This document shows, in pieces, positions 9,914 to 22,124 of a stretch of DNA of 64,000 nucleotides. The translations under genes and the position numbers were made by a program. Under the pieces are notes generated by a model. That model made no database searches. It was not told where the DNA came from and worked only from the letters and a program-made list of their open reading frames with translations. Location of the stretch: contig JABDMU010000034.1 in the NCBI GenBank assembly GCA_013001285.1, forward strand, positions 1 to 64,000, written 5' to 3'. The DNA is from Flavobacteriaceae bacterium. GTDB taxonomy: Bacteria; Bacteroidota; Bacteroidia; Flavobacteriales; Flavobacteriaceae. The first letter of the stretch is position 1, and every line of letters starts with the position of its first letter.

Positions 9914-11824
9914 TTAAGAGTTCGGGTTTCCACTTGTTATAATGAATTCCGAACGTCTATTCATTTGATGCTCTTCTTCAGAACAGTTTGAACCACATTT
10001 AACTTTAAGGTCGTTCTCACCTTTACCTTCTCCTGTAATTCTACTTGCATCTATTCCTTTTGAAATGACATACTGTACTGTTGTTTTTGCACGTCGCTCA
10101 GACAATCCTTGATTGTAAGAAGCAGAACCGCGACTGTCAGTATGTGAATTTGCCTTTATGACCATTTCAGGATATTTTTTCATGATCTGAACCAGCTTAT
10201 CGAGTTCAAATGCAGCTTTTGCTGTGATGTTTGATTTATCAAAATCAAAATAGATTGGATTCAATTCGATTTGATCCATAACAATGATCTTTTCAATAGG
10301 ATCTAAGGACACACTAACATTTACTTCTTCTTCATTTGAACCATCAACTGAAACCATAGTACTTTCATAATCTTCCATAGTAACTTCTAATTGTGTACTG
10401 GTTTCACATTCAATGATAAACTCAGCAATCCCGTCTGCATTCGTTGTTTTTGTTGAAATTGAATTGCCTTCAGTATCTTGTAAATTCACTAAAGCGCCAC
10501 TTATCGGATTGCCCGTTTTTGAATCGGATACAGTAGCAGTGATCAGCACATCACAGATGGGTTGCAATTTTTTAACCCCATAGATGTCATCACTTCCTTG
10601 TCCGCCATCTCTATTTGAGGAAACAAACCCTTCGCCTGTTTCTTCGTTCAATCGGAAAGCAAAATCGTCACCATTACTATTTAAAGGCACTCCAGCATTT
10701 CTAATAGGCGCCATTTTCCCGTCGATTTCCTTGGTTTGGAAAACATCCAAACCGCCGAGTCCTAAATGACCATTCGAAGAAAAATACAAGGAATTATCAC
10801 TACTGATATATGGGAACATCTCTTGACCTTCTGTATTCACTTTTTGGCCAAGATTCATAGGTTCACCTAAAGTACCATCATCATTAATGGCTGCTTTGTA
10901 AATATCAAAATCTCCAAATCCTCCAGGCATATTTGACGCGAAATAAAGTGTTTTTCCGTCACTACTAACTGATGGATTTTTGACTGAATAATTGTTGCTA
11001 TTGAAAGGTAAAGGATCAACTTCACTCCAACCATCAGATAAAAGAGTACTTCTGTATAGATTTAAAACACTGATCTTATTTTTGGTCAATGTGTCTTTTT
11101 CGTAAAGATTGTCAAAATAACTTTCTCTAGAAAAATACATGGTCTTTCCATCAGGACTGAAACTAACAATGCCTTCGTGATACTTGGTATTGATACGATT
11201 GCCAAGTAATCTTTCACCAACATAAGAACCATCACTTGAAACTGTATATTCATAAATATCTAAAAATGGCTGTCCGTTCCATCCATATGTTCGTCGCGAC
11301 GTGTTACGCGCCGACGTGATGTATAATTTTCCACCTTGTAGTGTGCCACCGAAATCTGAGGTCTCCGAATTAATTTCTAAATTCTGAACATTAAATTTCT
11401 TGCCTTTATCCAGAAGCTTAGGTAAATAATTAGGGTTTGCCTTAAATGCTAAAGCACGATCATCACCTGGGCGCATTTCTGCAAATTTGGCCATCCATTG
11501 GTTAGATTCATCATACTTTCCATTAGCTTTAAGCATTTGAGAATACTTATAGATCATTTCAGGATTTTCAGAATCAGTCAGAGCTTTTGCATACCAGCGT
11601 TCGGCTTCTTCAGTGTTGTATATGTTGTAATAGCATTCCCCTAATTGTCCATAAACATAGGTATCTGCTTCGCCTTTTTCTACTAAACTATGGTAGTCTT
11701 CGGCAGCTTTAATGAACTCCAATCTGCTAAAGTGCTTATCGGCTTTTTTGGTTGCTTTATTTTGAGCTGTTAAGCTTAAGCTACTTAACAAGGCTACTGT
11801 AAAAAGGGTTATTAGTTTTTTCAT
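9914..11824 (-). CDS. OmpA-family protein with TPR and beta-propeller domains (PorE-like)
   Basis: This 636-residue envelope protein has a signal peptide (1-21, ending LTAQ). TPR-like helices follow at about 25-115, then PD40/WD40-like propeller repeats at about 150-410 (SFSPDGKTMYF, SVSSDGKTLYFASN, YISSDNSLYFSS). A carboxypeptidase-regulatory-like domain lies at about 430-510 and a C-terminal OmpA peptidoglycan-binding domain at about 520-632 (FDFDKSNI, SHTDSRG, LSERRA, NRRSEFI). This order is that of PorE, a T9SS component thought to anchor the machine to peptidoglycan. As the last gene of the cassette, 23 bases after the PorP/SprF gene, it is more likely a cargo-dedicated paralogue than the core PorE. 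Confidence 0.88.
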   Translation of the reverse strand: MKKLITLFTVALLSSLSLTAQNKATKKADKHFSRLEFIKAAEDYHSLVEKGEADTYVYGQLGECYYNIYNTEEAERWYAKALTDSENPEMIYKYSQMLKANGKYDESNQWMAKFAEMRPGDDRALAFKANPNYLPKLLDKGKKFNVQNLEINSETSDFGGTLQGGKLYITSARNTSRRTYGWNGQPFLDIYEYTVSSDGSYVGERLLGNRINTKYHEGIVSFSPDGKTMYFSRESYFDNLYEKDTLTKNKISVLNLYRSTLLSDGWSEVDPLPFNSNNYSVKNPSVSSDGKTLYFASNMPGGFGDFDIYKAAINDDGTLGEPMNLGQKVNTEGQEMFPYISSDNSLYFSSNGHLGLGGLDVFQTKEIDGKMAPIRNAGVPLNSNGDDFAFRLNEETGEGFVSSNRDGGQGSDDIYGVKKLQPICDVLITATVSDSKTGNPISGALVNLQDTEGNSISTKTTNADGIAEFIIECETSTQLEVTMEDYESTMVSVDGSNEEEVNVSVSLDPIEKIIVMDQIELNPIYFDFDKSNITAKAAFELDKLVQIMKKYPEMVIKANSHTDSRGSASYNQGLSERRAKTTVQYVISKGIDASRITGEGKGENDLKVKCGSNCSEEEHQMNRRSEFIITSGNPNS

Positions 11825-11847: not shown

Positions 11848-12765
11848 TTAAAAATAACGAGGTGAACGAGAGATCTTTTTAGGAAAGTTAAGATCAAAAT
11901 TCAAAAATACTTCATGAGAAGAATTTGTGACAATATCCAACTCAGATTGGATGCTATCATAAGCATATCCAATTCTTAAATTAGGCATGACGAGGAAATT
12001 GATCATTCCACTAAACGAATCGTCTAAACGATATCCAACACCAACCTCCACGATATCATACATAAATACGTTTGCGTTGATATCAAAACTTACAGGTGCA
12101 TCAGAGGCATATTTTAAAAATGCATGTGGTTTTAATTTGAAGTTTTCATTCAAATCAAACACATAACCAGCAGCAGCAAACAGATGCTGAGTTTCTGATC
12201 CTATTTTGGTCCCATTTGAATCCAGATGAACGGCGTCTAAAAGGTTTGGCATAGATACCGAAACATAGTAACGGTTTGGTTTGAAAAAGTAAACTCCTGC
12301 TCCAATATTTGGCGTTGTTTCATTAATATTATTGGCAAAAAATGGATCCCCTGAATCAATCAAGTCAATTTGACCTTCCTGAATTCCAATGTCATGAAAA
12401 GTAAATCCACCTTTCAATCCAAAAGCAAGTTTGGTTTCTGAGGTTACAGGAATGGTGTAAGAGAAATCAATATAGGCATTGGTTTCTTTTACAGGACCAA
12501 TCTCATCAGCAATTAACGATAATCCAAGTCCAACACGATCGCCAACGGGTGAATGACCTGCAAAAGTAAAGGTCTTTGGTCCACCATCTAATCCAGCCCA
12601 CTGACTTCTATACAGAACACCTATGGCAAGGCCTTCGGTTGTTCCAGCATAAGCGGGATTGATGACATTCATGTTATACATATATTGTGTGTACTGAGGG
12701 TCTTGCTGAGCATTAGTTTTTAATGCGAACAAGCATACAATTAATATGATATATATTTTTTTCAT
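11848..12765 (-). CDS. PorP/SprF-family T9SS outer-membrane protein
   Basis: This 305-residue beta-barrel-type protein has a signal peptide (1-20, ending TNAQ) and the family's typical mature N-terminus, QDPQYTQYMYN...NPAYAGT. It continues with GVLYRSQWAG and predicted alternating strands. In Flavobacterium johnsoniae, SprF is needed to secrete and attach SprB, a type-B sorting-domain adhesin, and such genes usually lie beside their cargo. Here it follows a type-B cargo gene by 19 bases and precedes the OmpA-type gene by 23 bases, consistent with one transcript. Confidence 0.92.
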   Translation of the reverse strand: MKKIYIILIVCLFALKTNAQQDPQYTQYMYNMNVINPAYAGTTEGLAIGVLYRSQWAGLDGGPKTFTFAGHSPVGDRVGLGLSLIADEIGPVKETNAYIDFSYTIPVTSETKLAFGLKGGFTFHDIGIQEGQIDLIDSGDPFFANNINETTPNIGAGVYFFKPNRYYVSVSMPNLLDAVHLDSNGTKIGSETQHLFAAAGYVFDLNENFKLKPHAFLKYASDAPVSFDINANVFMYDIVEVGVGYRLDDSFSGMINFLVMPNLRIGYAYDSIQSELDIVTNSSHEVFLNFDLNFPKKISRSPRYF

Positions 12766-12784: not shown

Positions 12785-15700
12785 TTAATAATTTAAATAG
12801 ATCCAACTGGTGATAGGTTCTCTAGATGAGTTGAAGTAAATGATATAGAAATAGGTTCCAACAGGAAGTATTTTACCGTCTTGGTCAGTACCACACCATT
12901 GATCAACATAATCATTGAGTTCATAAATCTTGGTTCCATAGCGGTTAAAGATCTCTGCTTTTCTTATATCTTCACGATCTTCTAGATGATCTAAGATCAA
13001 GCAGTCATTAAACCCATCCCCATTTGGTGATAATCCTTGAGGTATGTCAACACAATACGCATTTTCATAGAAATTAACTGTGATTTGACTTTGACCCCAA
13101 CATCCAGTAACATCATCAAATACTGTTACTATAAAATCACCAGATTCTTCGGCATCAACCGTTAATTCATATAAATTGCTTGGTCCATTTTGCACTTCCA
13201 CGCCATCAAGGGTCCAGACATAAGTTAGTGGTCCCATATTTGGATCATCAGCATTTGCGACAAGAGCTTCTAAAGTATTAGCTTCATTTGCACATTTTAT
13301 TATGCTTGCTGATTCAAACGATACCTCAGGATTCGGGAAGAACTCTACTAAGATTTCATCAGAGAAGGTACAATCTGTTCCATTTATTACAATATCAGCA
13401 CGATAGAATGCCGTCGTACCAACCGAAATAGTTGTTCCCGTTTCTCCAGCAAGCAATTGTCCGTCCTGATACCAACTTATGGTTGAATTATTTGGAAGGT
13501 CCCCAGCATCAAGTATAACTTCGTCACCTTCGCAATTAGCGTTTCCAGATGCTAATAGGATATCATCCCCAAGATCAAGATCACCAATATCAAAACTTCC
13601 AGCAGCTAAGAACACAGCCGAATCAAATAAAGTATCTCCATCGTCAGCTACCACTAATTTGATATGGTATAATTCGTTTGGAATCACATCAGCTTGAGCA
13701 GTCATAACCACCGTATGGCCTCTAAAATCTGTTGGGCTTATTAATGGGTTTAATCCGTTAGGATCACCGTAATAATTATCAAAGAATTCTGCATTAACTG
13801 AAGGGCAGCCACCGTTATAAGTTTCGTCTCTAACCGTTAATACTGAAATTGGATCAACCGTACCTGGCACAATGGCTAGGTTAGTAGTGACACCATTTGA
13901 GTCGGTTAACAAGAATGCAAAGGCATCTGTAAATGTACATTGGAATGTTCCATATTCTTCAGCAGCAAAAATAAAATCAAAACTCATGTTATCTATGACC
14001 GGAATGAAATCAAATTCAATGACCGAAGCATTATTTGTATCTCCTGGATCTAATCCAGGAATTGCGTTTTCTAGATCGGCATCACCTGGCCAAGCAAAAC
14101 TTCCATCGCTTATGGTTTCGTCTTCAGGTCCAGGAGCATTTAGTACATCACCCGAGGTCATTATAAGTCCGCTTTCAAAAGGCCAAGAAGACCCATTTTT
14201 TTCAAAATATCCAATTCCATTTGTACTACCAAAGTCAGTACCAGTAGACCATGTAATATTGAATACCTGGTTACATTCTGAATCGATCAAAACATCTTGA
14301 ATGAGTTCTTCAACAGTATATTGATCTGTGTTTGTTGTTATTGGAGGCGGTATTGTAAAGACACAAATGTCAAATGTAACATCCTGTAAAGGTGTTGCCG
14401 TCCAAGAATATACTCTCACCGTATAGGTGTTTCCAACGGTTAAACCGTTAGCTACACTATCATTTGGGTCGCTGCAATAAAGTTGTGTAAGATTATTACA
14501 ATCATCACCTTCATAAACAACGTGATATAGATCTTGAGTATCTCCTACAATGTTGAATAACGTAATTGCATGATCTGTAGAAACAGCTGTAAACGTGAAC
14601 CAAACGTCATCATCAGCGGTTCCACCACAGCCATTTAATTCAGCTGAAGGCGTAGCTCCAAAAATAGTTCCAGAACCAAAATCAGTACAGTTACCATCAG
14701 CATTTGCAATGATCACAGTGGCATTGGCACATTCATCATTTGCAGGTGGCGTTGGAGGCTCTGTACAAGTTACTGTTAACGTATAGTCACCTACACTAGA
14801 GCCGAAGCCAAATACATAAACATAATATTGTGTTCCTAAGGTTGAAATAAATTCAACTTCAGATTGAAGTCCACCACATGCACCAAAATTATCATCGTTT
14901 CCAACAATACACGAAAGGGCGGTACAATCACCTTCCCAGACTTGAATTTTAGTGTCGTAAGTTGAACCACATAATGAGAAATTAACAATATCTCCAGTTC
15001 CTGTGAAGGCATACCATACTCCAGGCGAACCACCTCCGGTTCCACAGAAACCTCCAGGTTCATCAGTATCAGTAGCAGCACTTGTATTTCCAGAAACAAC
15101 ATCATCACATGCTATAGGAGTTGCGAGAGTACACAAATCATTATCAGGTGGGCAAGCCGCTTGAGTAAATGATGAACTCGTGATCAAACAGTTGCCGTCG
15201 TCATTATTTGTAATAGTAATGATCACGTTTGTGCCATTAGGATAAGGGCCCATTGTAACCACCCCTGTTACAGAAGCAGTTTGTGCGGGACTACCTTGGT
15301 TATCAGTAACATCAACTGAGGTTGCAGTTCCGAGATCGGTAATATCAACATCCATTAAAAATTGTTCACCATTAGCACAGTCATTAACTAAGGTATAAGT
15401 TGCAGTTGGATTTGTACATGTTGCACAAGACACATTGAAATCAATTGGTGTATAGCCTTCAGATTGACAACCAAAAATGCCATCAGATTGAACAAATAAG
15501 CTTATGGTATCTCCAGAAGATTGAAAACTCAGTCCGGAGACATCACCTAAATTACCGTAAGGCGTAGCCGCATTTAAATCGGTTACACCATCTGAATCAT
15601 AAATGATCAATTCATCCCATCCATTTTCAACTTGTCCTTGATTTATGGTAAGGTTTAACGATGAGCCGTCATCACTTATGAATGAATAAATTACCGTATT

Positions 15701-16615
15701 ATTATTGTCATAACAGAATACAGTATTCACCGGGCCATTAGCGCAGATCACTGTAGTATTAGGATCGGTTTCAGTTGTGAAGCTGGATGAAGTACATCCA
15801 GTAGCATTCCCTGAAGCATTGTAAGGTGTTATTGTAATATAATATGTAGTTGAATAGGCCAGTGTTGCCGGATCATAGGTTAACACATTTCCAACATCAA
15901 AATTATCAAGGATATCGGTTCCTCCTGGTGTTGTACCAATTGAAATAAGATAACCATCGGGAAATCCAGATGCTGGAGACCAATTGATCGTTGGATTAAT
16001 ACTTTCTCCTGTCGCACCATCTGTGGGAGCTGTTACGACAGCATCACAATTAGGAACCGCAGCCCCTTGAGAACTGATCACCGAGTTTTGAATACACCAT
16101 CCCCATTGCCAGCCATCGGCATCATCATAGGCATAACGGTATTTAAATCCAGATAATTGAGTGGCAGTAAAACCGCTAATATCAAATCCAGTTTCAAATG
16201 GTTGTAAGTTATTACAGGTTTGGTAATCATTAAGATTGGTGGTTCCTTGAAGATCCAGTAATGAATTCCAAGTTCCTCCATCAGCATCCCACCATTGAAT
16301 GAGAAGCGTTCCGCCAATATCTCTATGTGTATAATCTCCACTTATGGTAATTAAATTTTCGGTTGCTGTAAACGCAGCCGTTAAATCTATTATTGGAGAT
16401 TCAGAAGCAATATCATCATCTGATGTGCTACCTGCAGCATCATCGTCGAAAGCAAATGAGTTATCAACAGTTGGATCACCAAGCAATCCAGCGGCCGTAT
16501 AAGTCCCTGAAGTGGCCCAATTTGTATTTGGCCAGTTAGCAGGTTGATTTAAAACTTGAGAAAATGATACAAACGTAAATGAGAGAAAAACAATTAGTAA
16601 AGTAATTTTTTTCAT
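12785..16615 (-). CDS. Large T9SS type-B cargo protein with choice-of-anchor L domain
   Basis: This 1276-residue secreted adhesin-like protein has a signal peptide (1-20, ending SFSQ). An N-terminal module (about 20-180) and a fibronectin-like segment (about 185-280) come first, then a CUB-like unit with linker (about 288-490) homologous to the repeats of the upstream gene. Two PPC-like modules (about 495-755, with VWYAFTG and DVWFTFTA) are followed by a choice-of-anchor L domain (about 761-1008) and Ig-like sequence. The type-B (gliding-associated) sorting domain occupies about 1190-1276 (LSPNGDGFND, IFNRYGTKIY, LPVGTYFYII). Many Asp/Asn loops suggest calcium binding. The adjacent PorP/SprF gene probably handles its export. 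The ligand is unknown. Confidence 0.9.
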   Translation of the reverse strand: MKKITLLIVFLSFTFVSFSQVLNQPANWPNTNWATSGTYTAAGLLGDPTVDNSFAFDDDAAGSTSDDDIASESPIIDLTAAFTATENLITISGDYTHRDIGGTLLIQWWDADGGTWNSLLDLQGTTNLNDYQTCNNLQPFETGFDISGFTATQLSGFKYRYAYDDADGWQWGWCIQNSVISSQGAAVPNCDAVVTAPTDGATGESINPTINWSPASGFPDGYLISIGTTPGGTDILDNFDVGNVLTYDPATLAYSTTYYITITPYNASGNATGCTSSSFTTETDPNTTVICANGPVNTVFCYDNNNTVIYSFISDDGSSLNLTINQGQVENGWDELIIYDSDGVTDLNAATPYGNLGDVSGLSFQSSGDTISLFVQSDGIFGCQSEGYTPIDFNVSCATCTNPTATYTLVNDCANGEQFLMDVDITDLGTATSVDVTDNQGSPAQTASVTGVVTMGPYPNGTNVIITITNNDDGNCLITSSSFTQAACPPDNDLCTLATPIACDDVVSGNTSAATDTDEPGGFCGTGGGSPGVWYAFTGTGDIVNFSLCGSTYDTKIQVWEGDCTALSCIVGNDDNFGACGGLQSEVEFISTLGTQYYVYVFGFGSSVGDYTLTVTCTEPPTPPANDECANATVIIANADGNCTDFGSGTIFGATPSAELNGCGGTADDDVWFTFTAVSTDHAITLFNIVGDTQDLYHVVYEGDDCNNLTQLYCSDPNDSVANGLTVGNTYTVRVYSWTATPLQDVTFDICVFTIPPPITTNTDQYTVEELIQDVLIDSECNQVFNITWSTGTDFGSTNGIGYFEKNGSSWPFESGLIMTSGDVLNAPGPEDETISDGSFAWPGDADLENAIPGLDPGDTNNASVIEFDFIPVIDNMSFDFIFAAEEYGTFQCTFTDAFAFLLTDSNGVTTNLAIVPGTVDPISVLTVRDETYNGGCPSVNAEFFDNYYGDPNGLNPLISPTDFRGHTVVMTAQADVIPNELYHIKLVVADDGDTLFDSAVFLAAGSFDIGDLDLGDDILLASGNANCEGDEVILDAGDLPNNSTISWYQDGQLLAGETGTTISVGTTAFYRADIVINGTDCTFSDEILVEFFPNPEVSFESASIIKCANEANTLEALVANADDPNMGPLTYVWTLDGVEVQNGPSNLYELTVDAEESGDFIVTVFDDVTGCWGQSQITVNFYENAYCVDIPQGLSPNGDGFNDCLILDHLEDREDIRKAEIFNRYGTKIYELNDYVDQWCGTDQDGKILPVGTYFYIIYFNSSREPITSWIYLNY

Positions 16616-16663
16616 TTGTATTGATTAAGTTAGTTTATGTTTAAAATGAAGTTATGATAGACC

Positions 16664-16737
16664 AAGATAGAAAAAATGAGTTTCATCATTTAGTTAACAA
16701 ACTTTTAATAGATAAACTGCAATTATCATCGATTAAA
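16664..16737. repeat. Intergenic repeat, copy A
   Basis: This 74-base sequence lies between the two giant cargo genes and resembles 21054-21129 along its whole length. Both begin AAGATAG, share TTTTAATAGA in the middle and end CATCGATTAAA. It lies 49 bases upstream of the ATG at 16615 (minus-strand gene). It encodes no protein that I can see and has no standard -7 box. Confidence 0.75.
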
Positions 16738-16754
16738 GGATTTTAATTTTATAG

Positions 16755-19700
16755 TTAATAATTGACGTAAATCCATGCGGCTCGCTCCTTATTATTTTGA
16801 TATCGCATAACATAAAAATAGGTCCCAACAGGAAGTAATTTCCCATCATTTGATTGGCCTTTCCATTCATTAGAATAATTAGACTTAGAGTAGACTAGAG
16901 TTCCATTTCTATTATAGATTTCTAATTTATGAACATCATAACTGCTAAGGTCAAAACTATCATTAAATCCATCGTTGTTTGGTGAAATTCCTTGAGGAAT
17001 TACGCAATTTTCTAATTCAATTACTGTTAGACTGTTTGATCCTGTACATCCAGTTCCATCGAAGGTGACCTCGATTGTGTATTCGCCAGCAACTAAAACA
17101 GGCAAGGTTAAACTTGACTCTCCTGTTATTATTACACCATCTAAATACCATGAGATACTTACCTCGTTGTCAGAATAGTTTTCACCTGTTGCTACTATTT
17201 GAATTGGCACAGTAGCATCAGGACAAACCTCGAAGTCAAAATTTGGATCGAAACTGGTCACAGGAATATCGTTTACAACAAGATCAAAACTTGTGGTATC
17301 ATAGCAATCAACTGCTTGATTACTTTCAACTCGAGCAAATAATGTCTCTGGATTAGAAGTGTTGTTATAAGGTGATGCAATTGGATTTGTGCCTGATTCT
17401 GCATCAATTTGATTTATATGATAGGTCACAGTATATATTGTATCATCCTGACCATTTAAAATGTTAGGAGAATGGCTGTTTAAATCAAAACTCTCTACGC
17501 CATCTCTTGTGATATCGTCACATAATTCAAAATCAACGGATGTGGCTGTTGGTGTTGTACCAGAAATGACAAGGTCGAATGTTGAAGTTACAAAGCAACC
17601 AGAAGTGGACCCAACGGCATCTACATCTTCAACTCTCACATAAATGGTTTGTGGATTCGAAAGGTTTGTATAAGGTGAACTTAAAGCATTGATGCCAGCT
17701 TGAGCATCTGCAAGCGATTCGTGATAGGTGACCACAAAATCGGCAGGGCTTTGGCTTCCTAAAATTCCAGCAGTTTGAGCTTCAAGATCAAAGTCTTCAA
17801 TGTCATTCCCAGTTGGATCATCACAAGTGACGATATCATTCACTGGATTCGCATTTGCATCTTGATAAAAGGTTATTGTGACTTCGTCTTGGGCGGTTAC
17901 ATCACATTGTTCATCATATACAATTAATGTATAAGTGTCAGATTCTGTCACAGTTAATGACGATGAAATTTCACCATCAATTACAATACCATTTTGATAC
18001 CATTCAAAGACATCTGCAAAAGGTGAATTAGCAAAAATTGTATAGTCGGCGAATCCACAAAGTTCTTGATCTTCTCCAAGATCGGCCTCAATTTCTGCAG
18101 TTATCGATCCTGCACCGGCGTCGCCCTGATTGGTCTGCTGAATTTGAATGAATCCAGGTTGATTAGAAAAGTTTGTAACTAAGAGCACGTATATCTCACC
18201 AGAAAGGGCATTATCAATGGTAATACTTTCTTCAGGTGCTGGCGAATAGCTGCAATCAACAATATTTCCGAAGGGATAAAAATTCGGATTTGTTGTATTG
18301 TTAGGACAGGTTGGACAATCGACCAAAAGATCAAGTTCGCAGTAGTCTGTTTGGTTGTCAAAAGGGCCCCATAATACGAAGTCAACGTCGAGTCCGTTTC
18401 CAATGGGATTACCATTGGTATCAAATTCGGTATTCTGTACAATTTGTATTTCAATTAACCCTGGATCACCAATCTGAATAATGTTCCATGAAGGATTAGG
18501 AATAGTTCCTAAACAGGCTACACTGGAATCATTTGGTAGGCCAACGACATTGGTTCCAATTAGCGCACCTCCATCAACACAAAAATTTGATGCATTTTCA
18601 CAGATCGTATTCTCTGGTGCTTCTTTTATACACAGGTCAAAACTACTTGTTTCTTCGGCAGAACCTGCAGAAAAAACGCGAACAAAGTAGGTGTTACCCA
18701 CAACCAGTTCAGGTGTAATACTTGCCGTATCTCCAGAACAGTATAATTCTACTAAACTGCCACATGATCCTTCATAAACTGCATGGTCCAAATTTGTTGT
18801 ACCATCAGTAATATTGATAATTGAGATCAATTGAACATTATTCAAGGCAGTGAATTCATACCAAACGTCATCATCAGGATTTCCGAAACAACTGCCTTCA
18901 GAGACTCCCGAATCCGAGGCTGCAATTATAGATCCTGGAGTAAGGAGATCACAAGATTCGTCGTCATTCACCACTGCTGAGGTAGCATCAATACAATTGT
19001 CGTTATCAGGAGGACATGCCAATTGTTGAATTGGGCCAGAATTTATTATACAATTAACGTCGTCATCATTAGAAATTGTGATGATAATATCTGTTAAGAA
19101 AGGGTACGGTCCAAATTGTGTTATTCCAGTAGTCGTCACCTGAACTGGTGCACTACCTTGATTATCAGAGATCGTTAATGATGTGGCATCCCCGAGACTC
19201 GTTACATTAACATCTATTAAAAATTGGTCACCATTGTCGCAATCATCAACCACCAAATAATTGGCAGTTGGATTGATACAGGTAGCACAAGACACTGAAA
19301 AATCCCATTCCAATCTTGCACCAGATTGACAACTTACAGAACCATCACTATCCACTTCCAAAAACATTGAATCACCTGTTGATTGAAACACTAATCCGGC
19401 AAAATCATTAATGGCCGCATCATTGTTATTGAATAATATTGTTCCAGTATTGTCAGCGCCATCATATATTGTTAAATCATCAAAAAAGCCTTCGATGGTT
19501 CCTGAATTAAATTGAATGCGTAGTGGGCTACCATCAGATGATGTAAACAGCCATGATGTTGTATCATTATTCCCATAACAATATAATATGTCTAATGGCC
19601 CTGCCGAGCAATCAACAATATTCAAGACACATTGATCTTGAGTTAGGGATGGGCTGGTCAGTATGCAATTGGCGTCGTCATCATTGGCTACAGTAATAAC

Positions 19701-20912
19701 TACGTTAGTATTATTTAGAAATGGTCCGAACGAAAATTGACCAATTGCTGATGTCGTTTGTGCTGGACTTCCTTGATTATCGGAGATCGTAATTGACGAG
19801 GCTGAACCCAGATCGGTGAGATCTACATCAACGAAAAATTGTGGACCATTGATACAATCTTCTGAAACTGTATATGTGGCAACAGGATTGGCGCAGGTGG
19901 CGCAGGACACATTGAAATCCCATTCTAATCGCGAGCCAGATTGACAACTTACCGAACCATCGCTATCAACTTCCATGAAGAGTGAGTCTCCAGTAGAGTC
20001 AAACACTAAGCCAGAAAAGTCTTGGATTGCATCAGTATTATTATTGAATAATATTGGCGAGCCATTATCTGGGCCATCATAAATAGTTAGATCATCAAAA
20101 AAGCCTTCAATCGTTCCTGAAACAAAAGATAGTCTTACTGGACTTCCATCTGTGGAGGTAAATAACCATGATGTTGTGTCATTATTACCATAGCAGTAAT
20201 TAAATTGAAGAGGCGGTTGTGTGCAATCAACAGAGTTTAAAACACATTGATCTTGTGTTAGTGTTGGACTTGTTAAGATACAATTGCTATCGTCATCATT
20301 CGTTACTGTAACTACAACATTGGTGTTGTTTGCAAATGGGCCAAATGTAAAAAGTCCGATCGCACTTGTGATCTGTGGCGCACTACCTTGATTATCTGTT
20401 ATTGTTATGGAAGTTGCCGAACCGAGGTCGGTAAGATCAACATCAACAAAAAATTGAGGACCATTAATACAATCCTCATTAACGGTATAGGTGGCTGATG
20501 GGTTTACACATGTAGCACAGGCCACGTCAAAATTCCATTCCAATCGAGATCCAGATTGACAACTTACAGAGCTATCACTATCGACTTCAAGAAACAGGGA
20601 ATCTCCAGTTGAACTAAATTCTAATCCGGTAAAATCTTGAATAGCATCTGCATTATTATTAAAAAGAATGGCACCAGTATTATCGGTACCATCATATATT
20701 GTGAGGTCATCAAAAAACCCTTCTATTGTTCCTGAGTTAAAGCTTATTCTCAATGGGCTTCCATCATTAGAAGTAAATAACCAGGTCATGGTGTCATTGT
20801 TGCCGTAACAATAAACCGTATTTACTGGGGAACCGTTACAATCTATACTAATTTGAGCATTACCCTGTATTCCGGCAATTAAAAGGATTAAACAAAGCGC
20901 AATTTTTTTCAT
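16755..20912 (-). CDS. Giant T9SS type-B cargo protein with three tandem CUB-like repeats
   Basis: This 1385-residue secreted adhesin-like protein has a signal peptide (1-20, ending GNAQ). Three consecutive 205-residue units follow (about 24-228, 229-433, 434-638). Each holds a CUB-like half (YCYGNND, SGTIEGFFDDLTIYDG, SCQSGSRLEWDF) and a second half (DVDLTDLG, ISDNQGS, CILTSP). PPC-like modules (about 640-935, with DVWYEFTA) and Ig-like stretches come next. The type-B sorting domain is at about 1302-1385 (GISPNNDGFNDSF, IYNRNGTLVYS, LPVGTYFYVM). The paired cysteines and Asp/Asn-rich loops suit an extracellular calcium-stabilised rod. It heads the cassette with the 1276-residue paralogue and PorP/SprF. 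Confidence 0.92.
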   Translation of the reverse strand: MKKIALCLILLIAGIQGNAQISIDCNGSPVNTVYCYGNNDTMTWLFTSNDGSPLRISFNSGTIEGFFDDLTIYDGTDNTGAILFNNNADAIQDFTGLEFSSTGDSLFLEVDSDSSVSCQSGSRLEWNFDVACATCVNPSATYTVNEDCINGPQFFVDVDLTDLGSATSITITDNQGSAPQITSAIGLFTFGPFANNTNVVVTVTNDDDSNCILTSPTLTQDQCVLNSVDCTQPPLQFNYCYGNNDTTSWLFTSTDGSPVRLSFVSGTIEGFFDDLTIYDGPDNGSPILFNNNTDAIQDFSGLVFDSTGDSLFMEVDSDGSVSCQSGSRLEWDFNVSCATCANPVATYTVSEDCINGPQFFVDVDLTDLGSASSITISDNQGSPAQTTSAIGQFSFGPFLNNTNVVITVANDDDANCILTSPSLTQDQCVLNIVDCSAGPLDILYCYGNNDTTSWLFTSSDGSPLRIQFNSGTIEGFFDDLTIYDGADNTGTILFNNNDAAINDFAGLVFQSTGDSMFLEVDSDGSVSCQSGARLEWDFSVSCATCINPTANYLVVDDCDNGDQFLIDVNVTSLGDATSLTISDNQGSAPVQVTTTGITQFGPYPFLTDIIITISNDDDVNCIINSGPIQQLACPPDNDNCIDATSAVVNDDESCDLLTPGSIIAASDSGVSEGSCFGNPDDDVWYEFTALNNVQLISIINITDGTTNLDHAVYEGSCGSLVELYCSGDTASITPELVVGNTYFVRVFSAGSAEETSSFDLCIKEAPENTICENASNFCVDGGALIGTNVVGLPNDSSVACLGTIPNPSWNIIQIGDPGLIEIQIVQNTEFDTNGNPIGNGLDVDFVLWGPFDNQTDYCELDLLVDCPTCPNNTTNPNFYPFGNIVDCSYSPAPEESITIDNALSGEIYVLLVTNFSNQPGFIQIQQTNQGDAGAGSITAEIEADLGEDQELCGFADYTIFANSPFADVFEWYQNGIVIDGEISSSLTVTESDTYTLIVYDEQCDVTAQDEVTITFYQDANANPVNDIVTCDDPTGNDIEDFDLEAQTAGILGSQSPADFVVTYHESLADAQAGINALSSPYTNLSNPQTIYVRVEDVDAVGSTSGCFVTSTFDLVISGTTPTATSVDFELCDDITRDGVESFDLNSHSPNILNGQDDTIYTVTYHINQIDAESGTNPIASPYNNTSNPETLFARVESNQAVDCYDTTSFDLVVNDIPVTSFDPNFDFEVCPDATVPIQIVATGENYSDNEVSISWYLDGVIITGESSLTLPVLVAGEYTIEVTFDGTGCTGSNSLTVIELENCVIPQGISPNNDGFNDSFDLSSYDVHKLEIYNRNGTLVYSKSNYSNEWKGQSNDGKLLPVGTYFYVMRYQNNKERAAWIYVNY
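18999..19613 (-). repeat. 615-bp coding repeat, unit 3
   Basis: Third in-frame unit of the tandem array inside the giant cargo gene, 205 codons long. It starts at the Asp-Cys pair homologous to those opening units 1 and 2, and ends where the array joins the PPC-like region. Confidence 0.85.
19614..20228 (-). repeat. 615-bp coding repeat, unit 2
   Basis: Second 205-codon unit. Matching landmarks (for example the segment ending ccatgatgtt at 20175) are exactly 615 bases from their counterparts in unit 3. Confidence 0.88.
20229..20843 (-). repeat. 615-bp coding repeat, unit 1
   Basis: First 205-codon unit, directly after the signal peptide. Its landmarks are exactly 615 bases from unit 2, so no insertion or deletion has shifted the spacing between units. 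Confidence 0.88.
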
Positions 20913-21053
20913 TTTATCGGTTCGTTGGTGTATGTAAGTTCAAAGGACAAAAACTAAAATATCAATTTCGATTTAATCAAAATAATAAGTAGAAAAATAA
21001 TCCAAATTAAGGATTCTTTTTTATTATAACTCAGAGGGAATTAAGGGAAATCG

Positions 21054-21129
21054 AAGATAGAGAAAAATGCAGTCAATCATTGATTCATCACAGTTTTAAT
21101 AGACAAAACCCACTATTTCATCGATTAAA
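21054..21129. repeat. Intergenic repeat, copy B
   Basis: This 76-base sequence matches 16664-16737 with small differences. It lies 141 bases upstream of the ATG of the giant cargo gene (20912, minus strand) and 26 bases beyond the stop of the EEP gene at 21156. The remaining bases (20913-21053) are AT-rich and show no gene. Confidence 0.75.
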
Positions 21130-21155
21130 TGTGAATAAGTGATGCATGTCAAATA

Positions 21156-22124
21156 TTAGCCCTTTTTTAGAAGTAGATACACAGGGAAATGGTCACTATA
21201 ACCTCCTTTATATTTTAGACCCACATAAGTCCTAAAAGGATTCCCCTTGTACTTTCCTTTAAATTGTTTTAAAAATTGGTCATCAAAAATATTAGCTTTT
21301 GAGAAACGATGCTTCCCTTTGGCGTGCTCAAAAAAATTAGTTGAGAACATGATTTGATCAAATAAATTCCAATTAAATCTATAGTTTAAACTTCCACGTT
21401 TATAGGAGAGCAACGTTTCCATGGGATTGAACAATTCTAAATTGTGAACTAAATTCTTTACGCTTTTGCACTTAGGGTCATCATTAAAATCGCCCATGAC
21501 AATGATCTTGGCATTGGCATCACTTTCCTTAATTTGTTGTACCACTTCAATAAGTCTGTTAGAAGCGATTAATCGTTTTGGTTCGGTTATTTCAACACCT
21601 TCGCTTCGTGAAGGCCAATGATTGACCAAAGCATAAATTTTTTCTCCATTTAACAATCCTTCTACACACAAGATATCTCGGGTATGATCAGGGAGTCCGT
21701 CTTCATCAAATAGGTTAATACTAAAAACTTCGGTATTGATCACTTCAAAAAATTTCGAATTGTAAAGTAGGGCAGTGTCAATACCACGTTCATCGGGTGA
21801 ATCATAATGTACAAAGGCATAGCCTTCATTTTTAAGAAATTTTGAATTCACCAAGTCCCGAAGTACTAATTTGTTTTCAACTTCAGCTAATCCAACAATA
21901 ACAGGTAATTTATTAGTCGATTTTAGGCCTATTTGAGAGATGGTATAGCCCAGTTTTCTAAGTTTTTTTTGATAGCGTTTCTTAGTCCATCTCCGTTCTG
22001 AATCTGGCAAGAAATCGTCATCATTCGTTAAATGATCATCATGGGTGTCAAACAAATTCTCTAAATTATAAAAGGCAACAGTAAAATAATTGGAGTGTTT
22101 TTTTTTCTTTTTGAAGAAGGACAT
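21156..22124 (-). CDS. EEP-family phosphodiesterase without signal peptide
   Basis: This 322-residue protein is homologous along its length to the secreted enzyme at 3912-4967. It has FYNLENLFDTHDD, VGLAEVENK, NHWPSRSEG, GDFNDDPK and the C-terminal catalytic SDHFPV. The N-terminus is a lysine-rich stretch (MSFFKKKKKHSN) instead of a signal peptide, so it is predicted to be cytoplasmic. The substrate is unknown. The gene is divergent from hflX, with 110 bases between the starts. Confidence 0.9.
   Translation of the reverse strand: MSFFKKKKKHSNYFTVAFYNLENLFDTHDDHLTNDDDFLPDSERRWTKKRYQKKLRKLGYTISQIGLKSTNKLPVIVGLAEVENKLVLRDLVNSKFLKNEGYAFVHYDSPDERGIDTALLYNSKFFEVINTEVFSINLFDEDGLPDHTRDILCVEGLLNGEKIYALVNHWPSRSEGVEITEPKRLIASNRLIEVVQQIKESDANAKIIVMGDFNDDPKCKSVKNLVHNLELFNPMETLLSYKRGSLNYRFNWNLFDQIMFSTNFFEHAKGKHRFSKANIFDDQFLKQFKGKYKGNPFRTYVGLKYKGGYSDHFPVYLLLKKG

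Follow-up and report, generated by a model that had tools for sequence, protein, structure and literature searches.

A putative LytTR-type operator in a duplicated promoter element upstream of T9SS cargo genes in Flavobacteriaceae

Background

Two cargo genes lie one after the other on the minus strand of a 64,000-nucleotide stretch of a Flavobacteriaceae genome (hereafter the window), both coding for proteins with a T9SS type B sorting domain, and each is preceded by a copy of the same non-coding sequence. What is this sequence, and what do its two copies mean? A sequence-only reading of the window had placed three answers side by side, namely a shared regulator site, an untranslated-RNA element and the relic of a gene duplication. 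We are confident that the duplicated stretch is a conserved promoter/operator; more specifically, we give a probability of roughly 70% to the reading that it serves a T9SS cargo-SprF-PorE gene cluster as promoter and is composed of a distal operator of the LytTR type, a pair of proximal boxes and a -7-like box. Table 1 lists the genes and the parts of the element. Upstream of cargo B lie an endonuclease-family gene and hflX. Cargo B also contains three related segments of ~210 residues (window 18969-20852), each matching the same part of cargo A.

Table 1. Genes and parts of the duplicated element at the cargo locus (window positions)
Feature	Position	Strand	Basis
PorE/OmpA-like gene	9914..11824	-	PF00691; the two closest NCBIfam models (CHU_0125_OmpA, T9SS_PorE) below curated cut-offs
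PorP/SprF-family gene, next after cargo A	11848..12765	-	PF11751, TIGR03519
Cargo A, T9SS type B sorting domain	12785..16615	-	PF13585, TIGR04131
Putative promoter element copy 1, upstream of cargo A	16652..16740	-	model R1 match, E 1.8e-18; pair alignment
-7-like box copy 1, TATCTTGG	16662..16669	-	sequence; conserved columns
Proximal boxes copy 1, TGTTAAC and TGATGAA, 11 bp apart	16682..16699	-	sequence; GTTAA offsets 15 and 26 in 35 copies
Putative distal operator copy 1, two direct half-sites, 20-bp period	16706..16739	-	family-wide operator pattern, 1 mismatch
Cargo B, T9SS type B sorting domain; partial paralogue of cargo A	16755..20912	-	PF13585, TIGR04131; BLASTP against cargo A
Putative promoter element copy 2, upstream of cargo B	21042..21132	-	model R1 match, E 5.1e-15; pair alignment
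-7-like box copy 2, TATCTTCG	21052..21059	-	sequence; conserved columns
Proximal boxes copy 2, TGATGAA and TGATTGA, 11 bp apart, degenerate	21073..21090	-	sequence; same alignment columns
Putative distal operator copy 2, half-site spacing one base longer than in copy 1	21097..21131	-	read from alignment
Endonuclease-family gene just upstream of copy 2; precedes the element in many relatives too	21156..22124	-	PF19580; synteny

Duplication and conservation of the element

The two stretches align end to end, 16664-16737 with 21054-21129, just as the sequence-only reading had it. Their local alignment score is 58, against a mean of 21 (sd 3.2, largest 37) in 3000 dinucleotide-preserving shuffles, and under a second scoring scheme it is 40 against a largest shuffled score of 30; none of the 3000 shuffled pairs reaches either score, and the Gumbel p values for the two schemes are 1.8e-7 and 1.0e-5. 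The distances claimed to the cargo ATGs are also right, with 48 and 141 nt between stretch and ATG, and the conserved unit is a little longer than first stated, spanning ~90 nt. In the 2.88-Mb genome the combination TTAATCGATG-N12..18-TCTATTAAA occurs at two places only, which are the two copies, and a model of the element gives two strong matches (Table 1), the next best having an E value of 0.0028. Twelve of 37 weaker model matches in this genome were inspected, six of them lying inside an ORF; two weaker matches (L195, L202) are operator-like sites. A dispersed mobile repeat was considered and rejected, there being only two copies in this genome, both before cargo genes.

The genome collection searched held no other genome of the same genus, and conservation was followed across the family. 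By eye the element was read in five family stretches with related cargo genes (L088, L089, L096, L098, L101) and weakly in a sixth (L099). Among 80 loci collected through the endonuclease, 35 were inspected and eight showed it (L105, L106, L116, L132, L124, L125, L127, L153); in the last four the next gene encodes a protein of ~305 aa, which is SprF-like where tested (L268, L271). The weak candidate L099 is not in A1, and neither L124 nor L127, which nearly duplicate L125 and L153, was used. A sequence-only model built from 13 copies and searched against 299 family genomes at a cut-off of E<=0.001 gave 67 matches in 58 genomes, 49 of these having one match and nine having two. Forty matches were taken with their surroundings, seven were already in the set and 20 (E 1.6e-4 or worse) were left out. 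In 27 of the 40 the gene that follows the element resembles cargo A, cargo B or SprF; of the other 13, two are cut by the contig end (L251, L276) and 11, all with E values of 8.6e-6 or worse, do not stand before such a gene.

In 35 copies anchored on TCTATTA, mean pairwise identity is 0.40-0.86 inside the element and 0.28-0.33 in both flanks, where composition predicts 0.305. The anchoring, and the model as the source of most of the copies, raise the inside values; the copies first found by synteny did not come from the model. The profile uses 35 of 51 entries, omitting three duplicates, the 11 weak matches not before a cargo gene, L276 (cut) and L278 (unanchored). The sequence-only reading had named lack of conservation, lack of other copies and flank-like divergence as the outcome against it; the search found the element conserved in many genera with its flanks at background. 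Its proposal of a shared regulator site gains support from the same conservation before a related gene in many genera, from the background-level flanks, and from the occurrence of the distal pattern before other T9SS-related genes described below.

How the two copies arose is best seen in the relative G220, which has both elements on separate contigs, one lying between the endonuclease and cargo B and the other following the end of a cargo B-like gene and preceding cargo A. Elements of the same gene are 0.82 (cargo A) and 0.80 (cargo B) identical between the two genomes, while the two copies within one genome are 0.77 identical here and 0.72 in G220. Since the between-genome identity exceeds the within-genome identity, the pair most likely predates the split of this genome from G220, both copies having been kept since. 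The relic proposal thus contained a sound part, the origin of the two copies here by duplication, and one that did not hold, as the element is not decaying and both copies are kept in G220 as well. That the element is nothing but a functionless leftover is hardly credible: cargo A and cargo B are partly paralogous and the element was duplicated together with them, in G220 too, but many genera have it in a single, conserved copy between background-level flanks. In another relative (G039; L089, L090) there are tandem cargo-SprF-PorE-like triplets, in which the element is found only at the cargo gene that follows the endonuclease; the two following cargo genes have 37-nt spacers without it.

Architecture of the element

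Read on the coding strand, the element consists of a distal repeat, TGTTAA-type boxes, a T tract and TATCTTnG, in that order. 1) The distal repeat of copy 1 is TTAATCGATGA / TTTATCTATTA with a 20-bp period, and the period in copy 2 is 21; the half-sites within copy 1 are CCTTTAATCGATG and GCAGTTTATCTATT, and the family consensus is about GCATTTnRTCGAT. In Nonlabens-type copies the distal half-site is degenerate. 2) Exact GTTAA occurs at offset 15 in 28 of the 35 copies, at offset 26 in 13 and at 27 in one, all other offsets between 8 and 44 being free of it; the proximal boxes are therefore 11 bp apart, the second being degenerate in both window copies. 3) The sequence-only reading had seen no -7 box in either copy, which is incorrect: both end in a -7-like box, TATCTTGG and TATCTTCG, each agreeing at 7 of 8 positions with TAnnTTTG. 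A TTG that could serve as -33 element lies ~17 nt upstream of the -7-like box in L088, as judged by eye, and is not constant among the other copies.

The box TAnnTTTG is that of the flavobacterial main sigma factor, as described for F. psychrophilum (PMC9723704). Compared with promoters of that type the element has the matching TATCTTnG end but differs in its long conserved upstream region. The same source also describes alternative sigma motifs (SM4-6) in its text. A promoter of the ECF/SigP type was also considered and set aside, no CGT box having been noticed by eye. For Porphyromonas gingivalis, PMC4800418 describes PorXY-SigP as a system whose ECF sigma factor works on machinery genes and showed no binding upstream of porK; both systems concern the transcription of T9SS genes, the present one being distinguished by cargo genes, gldK and a tandem repeat. 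For PhoP of Riemerella anatipestifer an ArcA-like motif with the core TTTAACA is given in PMC9603813, and on the other strand this resembles the proximal TGTTAA boxes, a resemblance only, as such AT-rich words are common.

The position of the -7-like box also bears on the proposal that the element is an untranslated RNA in the leader of the cargo mRNA. As conserved intergenic DNA on the transcribed strand before a gene it would suit such a role; however, with the box at its downstream end most of the element would stay untranscribed, and the distal pattern also occurs in inverted orientation next to gldK. No conserved base pairs were predicted on 13 copies, single copies fold no better than shuffles, and Rfam gave no match to the element up to an E value of 1. 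The proposal found no support in these searches and we consider it very improbable.

A family-wide operator and its target genes

The distal repeat, which probably is an operator of the LytTR type, extends well beyond the cargo locus. We described it by the pattern CNTTTNRTCGA-N8-GCNTTTNRTCKANNA, drawn partly from sites already seen (the element, sites at SixA-like genes and L195); the extra base between its half-sites keeps copy 2 outside this fixed pattern. With up to three mismatches the pattern has 16 matches in this genome versus two for a reversed control, and 13 of the 14 other distinct places are intergenic. With at most one mismatch it has 111 matches in 66 of 149 family genomes, versus none for the reversed control. 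In a class-wide draw it was absent from 192 genomes of other families and present in three of six genomes of the same family. The 111 matches comprise 11 at the orthologous element, three elsewhere in this genome and 97 others, of which 96 were examined (G090:C21, whose downstream side leaves the contig, was omitted). Ninety-four of the 96 are intergenic and two lie inside ORFs by our own ORF calls; 59 immediately precede a same-strand ORF, 16 precede an inverted ORF only and 19 precede neither at the length used, and many of the sites are mutually orthologous, so these counts are not independent. Within the 60 nt that follow the operator in the 94 sites, exact TAnnTTTG starts at an offset of 5-7 nt 16 times and at all remaining offsets combined 10 times. 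Counted from the same point, the -7-like box of copy 1 starts after 36 nt, which places it about three helical turns beyond its position at these simplest targets. One place in this genome (L298 and L305, C34:103278-103331) has three half-sites in a row at the 20-bp period before the gene of an exported protein.

What do these sites precede? Three kinds of targets stand out.

1) T9SS cargo. Sorting domains were sought in the last 115 residues of 33 of the 59 directly downstream proteins, after omission of 16 SixA-like proteins, three of less than 120 aa and seven cut by the end of the stretch. TIGR04183 is matched by 13 of the 33 and TIGR04131 by five, versus 3/60 and at most 1/60 of neighbouring-gene controls. 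Counted together these give 18/33 versus 3 or 4/60 (p 1e-7 to 4e-7), and if every TIGR04131 match also matched TIGR04183 the comparison would be 13/33 versus 4/60 (p 2e-4), the bounds allowing for one more control protein with a type B domain and the controls being those among the matches listed. The Pfam models concur, with 12 tails matching PF18962 and eight PF13585, versus three and at most one among the controls. T9SS sorting domains are thus enriched downstream of the operator, in at least 13 of 33 proteins versus at most four of 60. In this genome, seven of 13 intergenic sites lie directly before a protein with a signal-peptide-like start, as read by eye.

2) gldK, a machinery gene coding for part of the T9SS ring. 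A gldK-like gene adjoins the operator in inverted orientation in five of the 96 cases (L312, L326, L331, L350, L378) and in this genome (L293), where GldK matches TIGR03525 above its cut-off. The 34-nt site at gldK is identical between this genome and G087. Together with a lipoprotein-like gene, gldK accounts for two more of the intergenic sites here, both inverted.

3) SixA-like phosphatase genes. By an N-terminal motif, 16 of the 59 directly downstream proteins are SixA-like; two such proteins, L309 from a relative and L303 from this genome, match the histidine phosphatase family PF00300, and we call proteins of this type SixA-like. In 14 of the 16 relatives 2-5 nt separate the end of the operator from the ATG of the SixA-like gene, the exceptions being L311 (42 nt) and L339 (24 nt). 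The loci in relatives where the operator stands before a SixA-like gene are L309, L311, L317, L334, L339, L341, L343, L347, L348, L374, L379, L380, L386, L389, L399 and L401, besides L303 in this genome.

Several smaller groups of sites were also observed. In four genera (L359, L369, L398, L400) the operator is flanked by a 157-aa ORF and a convergent 202-aa ORF, and no long ORF lies downstream of it; perhaps a small RNA or peptide follows it there. Conserved small ORFs of 53-56 aa follow it at L356, L358 and L415, and conserved ORFs of 50-56 aa with a lipoprotein-like start at L361, L407 and L408. ORFs resembling an ECF sigma factor lie 200-300 nt downstream of the operator at L367 and L383; sigma-70 models match one of the 33 tails, whose sequence identifies it as that of L383.

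A candidate LytTR regulator

According to PMC4847170, the sites of LytTR proteins mostly consist of two 9-11 nt repeats about two turns apart, with a spacer of 11-13 nt, and have no consensus in common. The same source gives GGCATTTCAT as the half-site of E. coli YpdB and a single known target for that regulator. In the upstream region of yhjX in E. coli we read this half-site twice, 21 bp apart. The yhjX operator of YpdB (a LytTR protein annotated PyrR in MG1655) is thus a direct repeat like the one described here, with a period of 21 bp against 20-21 bp, and GGCATTTCAT shares a GCATTTnAT core with our operator, which, as LytTR sites are described as lacking a common consensus, is support and not proof. 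There are also differences: the half-site here runs on into TCGAT, the repeat is found at many genes, and the LytTR domains of the candidate regulator and YpdB are only 27% identical. The 20-bp period (21 in copy 2 and in the regulator promoter) is slightly short of the usual LytTR spacing as that source describes it.

Seven LytTR matches were found in the genome. The one we favour (G000:C77:37346-38038) has a receiver and a LytTR domain, is divergent from a gene read as rpsF, and was chosen among the seven after its promoter had been inspected. In 20 of 59 other family genomes the protein is 93-97% identical; in the remaining ones the best match does not exceed 72% or there is none at E 1e-40. 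For G044 the identity is 97%, against 86% for HflX. All 21 genomes show strong conservation of the gene's own promoter, in which a half-site like CACTTTAnCGATG is followed 21 bp on by a second like GGTTTTTAnCCGA with CGA, and TACTATTG or a close form starts 11 nt from the second CGA, which is the layout of the simplest targets. From these half-sites and the -7-like box we infer both autoregulation and the identity of the regulator: the rpsF-linked protein appears to regulate its own gene through a site of this kind. Of the 21 genomes with a close orthologue 19 carry the operator, versus 11 of 39 others (Fisher 6e-6, a comparison confounded by ancestry), and G035 and G050 have the orthologue and no operator match.

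Should the operator instead be read by another protein that binds head to tail, the rpsF-linked gene would be one more target. AraC-family dimers, too, bind direct repeats about two turns apart, and any of the LytTR paralogues could be involved, there being seven matches in the genome. One of these (L187) is closer to YpdB in the LytTR domain than the candidate (31/98 versus 26/98), and the 11 of 39 genomes that carry the operator and have no close orthologue point the same way. Against another regulator stand the conservation of the rpsF-linked protein in excess of that of HflX and the operator-like half-sites in its own promoter; inspection by eye of the 260 nt before each of the other six LytTR genes showed no such pair. 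We regard another regulator as rather unlikely, and put the rpsF-linked protein as the reader of the operator at even odds.

Proposed control of the T9SS cluster

On our favoured reading, the element would be the promoter of the cargo-SprF-PorE cluster, doubled by a tandem duplication of promoter and cargo gene. The two direct half-sites of the distal operator, 20-21 bp apart, would be bound head to tail by a response regulator of the LytTR type, for which the rpsF-linked protein is the likeliest candidate. The proximal TGTTAA-type pair, 11 bp apart, may be bound by a regulator of the OmpR/PhoP type, and the T tract and the -7-like box TATCTTnG would serve the flavobacterial main sigma factor. 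At the cargo genes the position of the operator before the -7 box fits activation, the regulator then acting ~30 bp further upstream than at the simplest targets, where TAnnTTTG follows the operator after 5-7 nt; at the SixA-like genes, its location immediately before the ATG suggests repression. The same operator would link the cluster to other T9SS cargo genes, to gldK and to the SixA-like phosphatase gene.

In the accessible parts of PMC9723704 and PMC4800418, control of T9SS genes is described through sigma factors, and in the literature covered, mostly outside subscription journals and partly in excerpt, we came across neither this operator nor any LytTR regulator of T9SS genes. The evidence from genome comparison makes it an even chance that in Flavobacteriaceae one self-controlling LytTR regulator, 93-97% identical across genera, ties T9SS cargo, gldK and a SixA-like gene together through a 20-bp repeat operator, joined at the present cargo cluster by a second regulator at the 11-bp repeats. 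Now that the operator is defined, its targets are listed and a single gene is proposed for the regulator, such joint control of T9SS cargo becomes directly testable.
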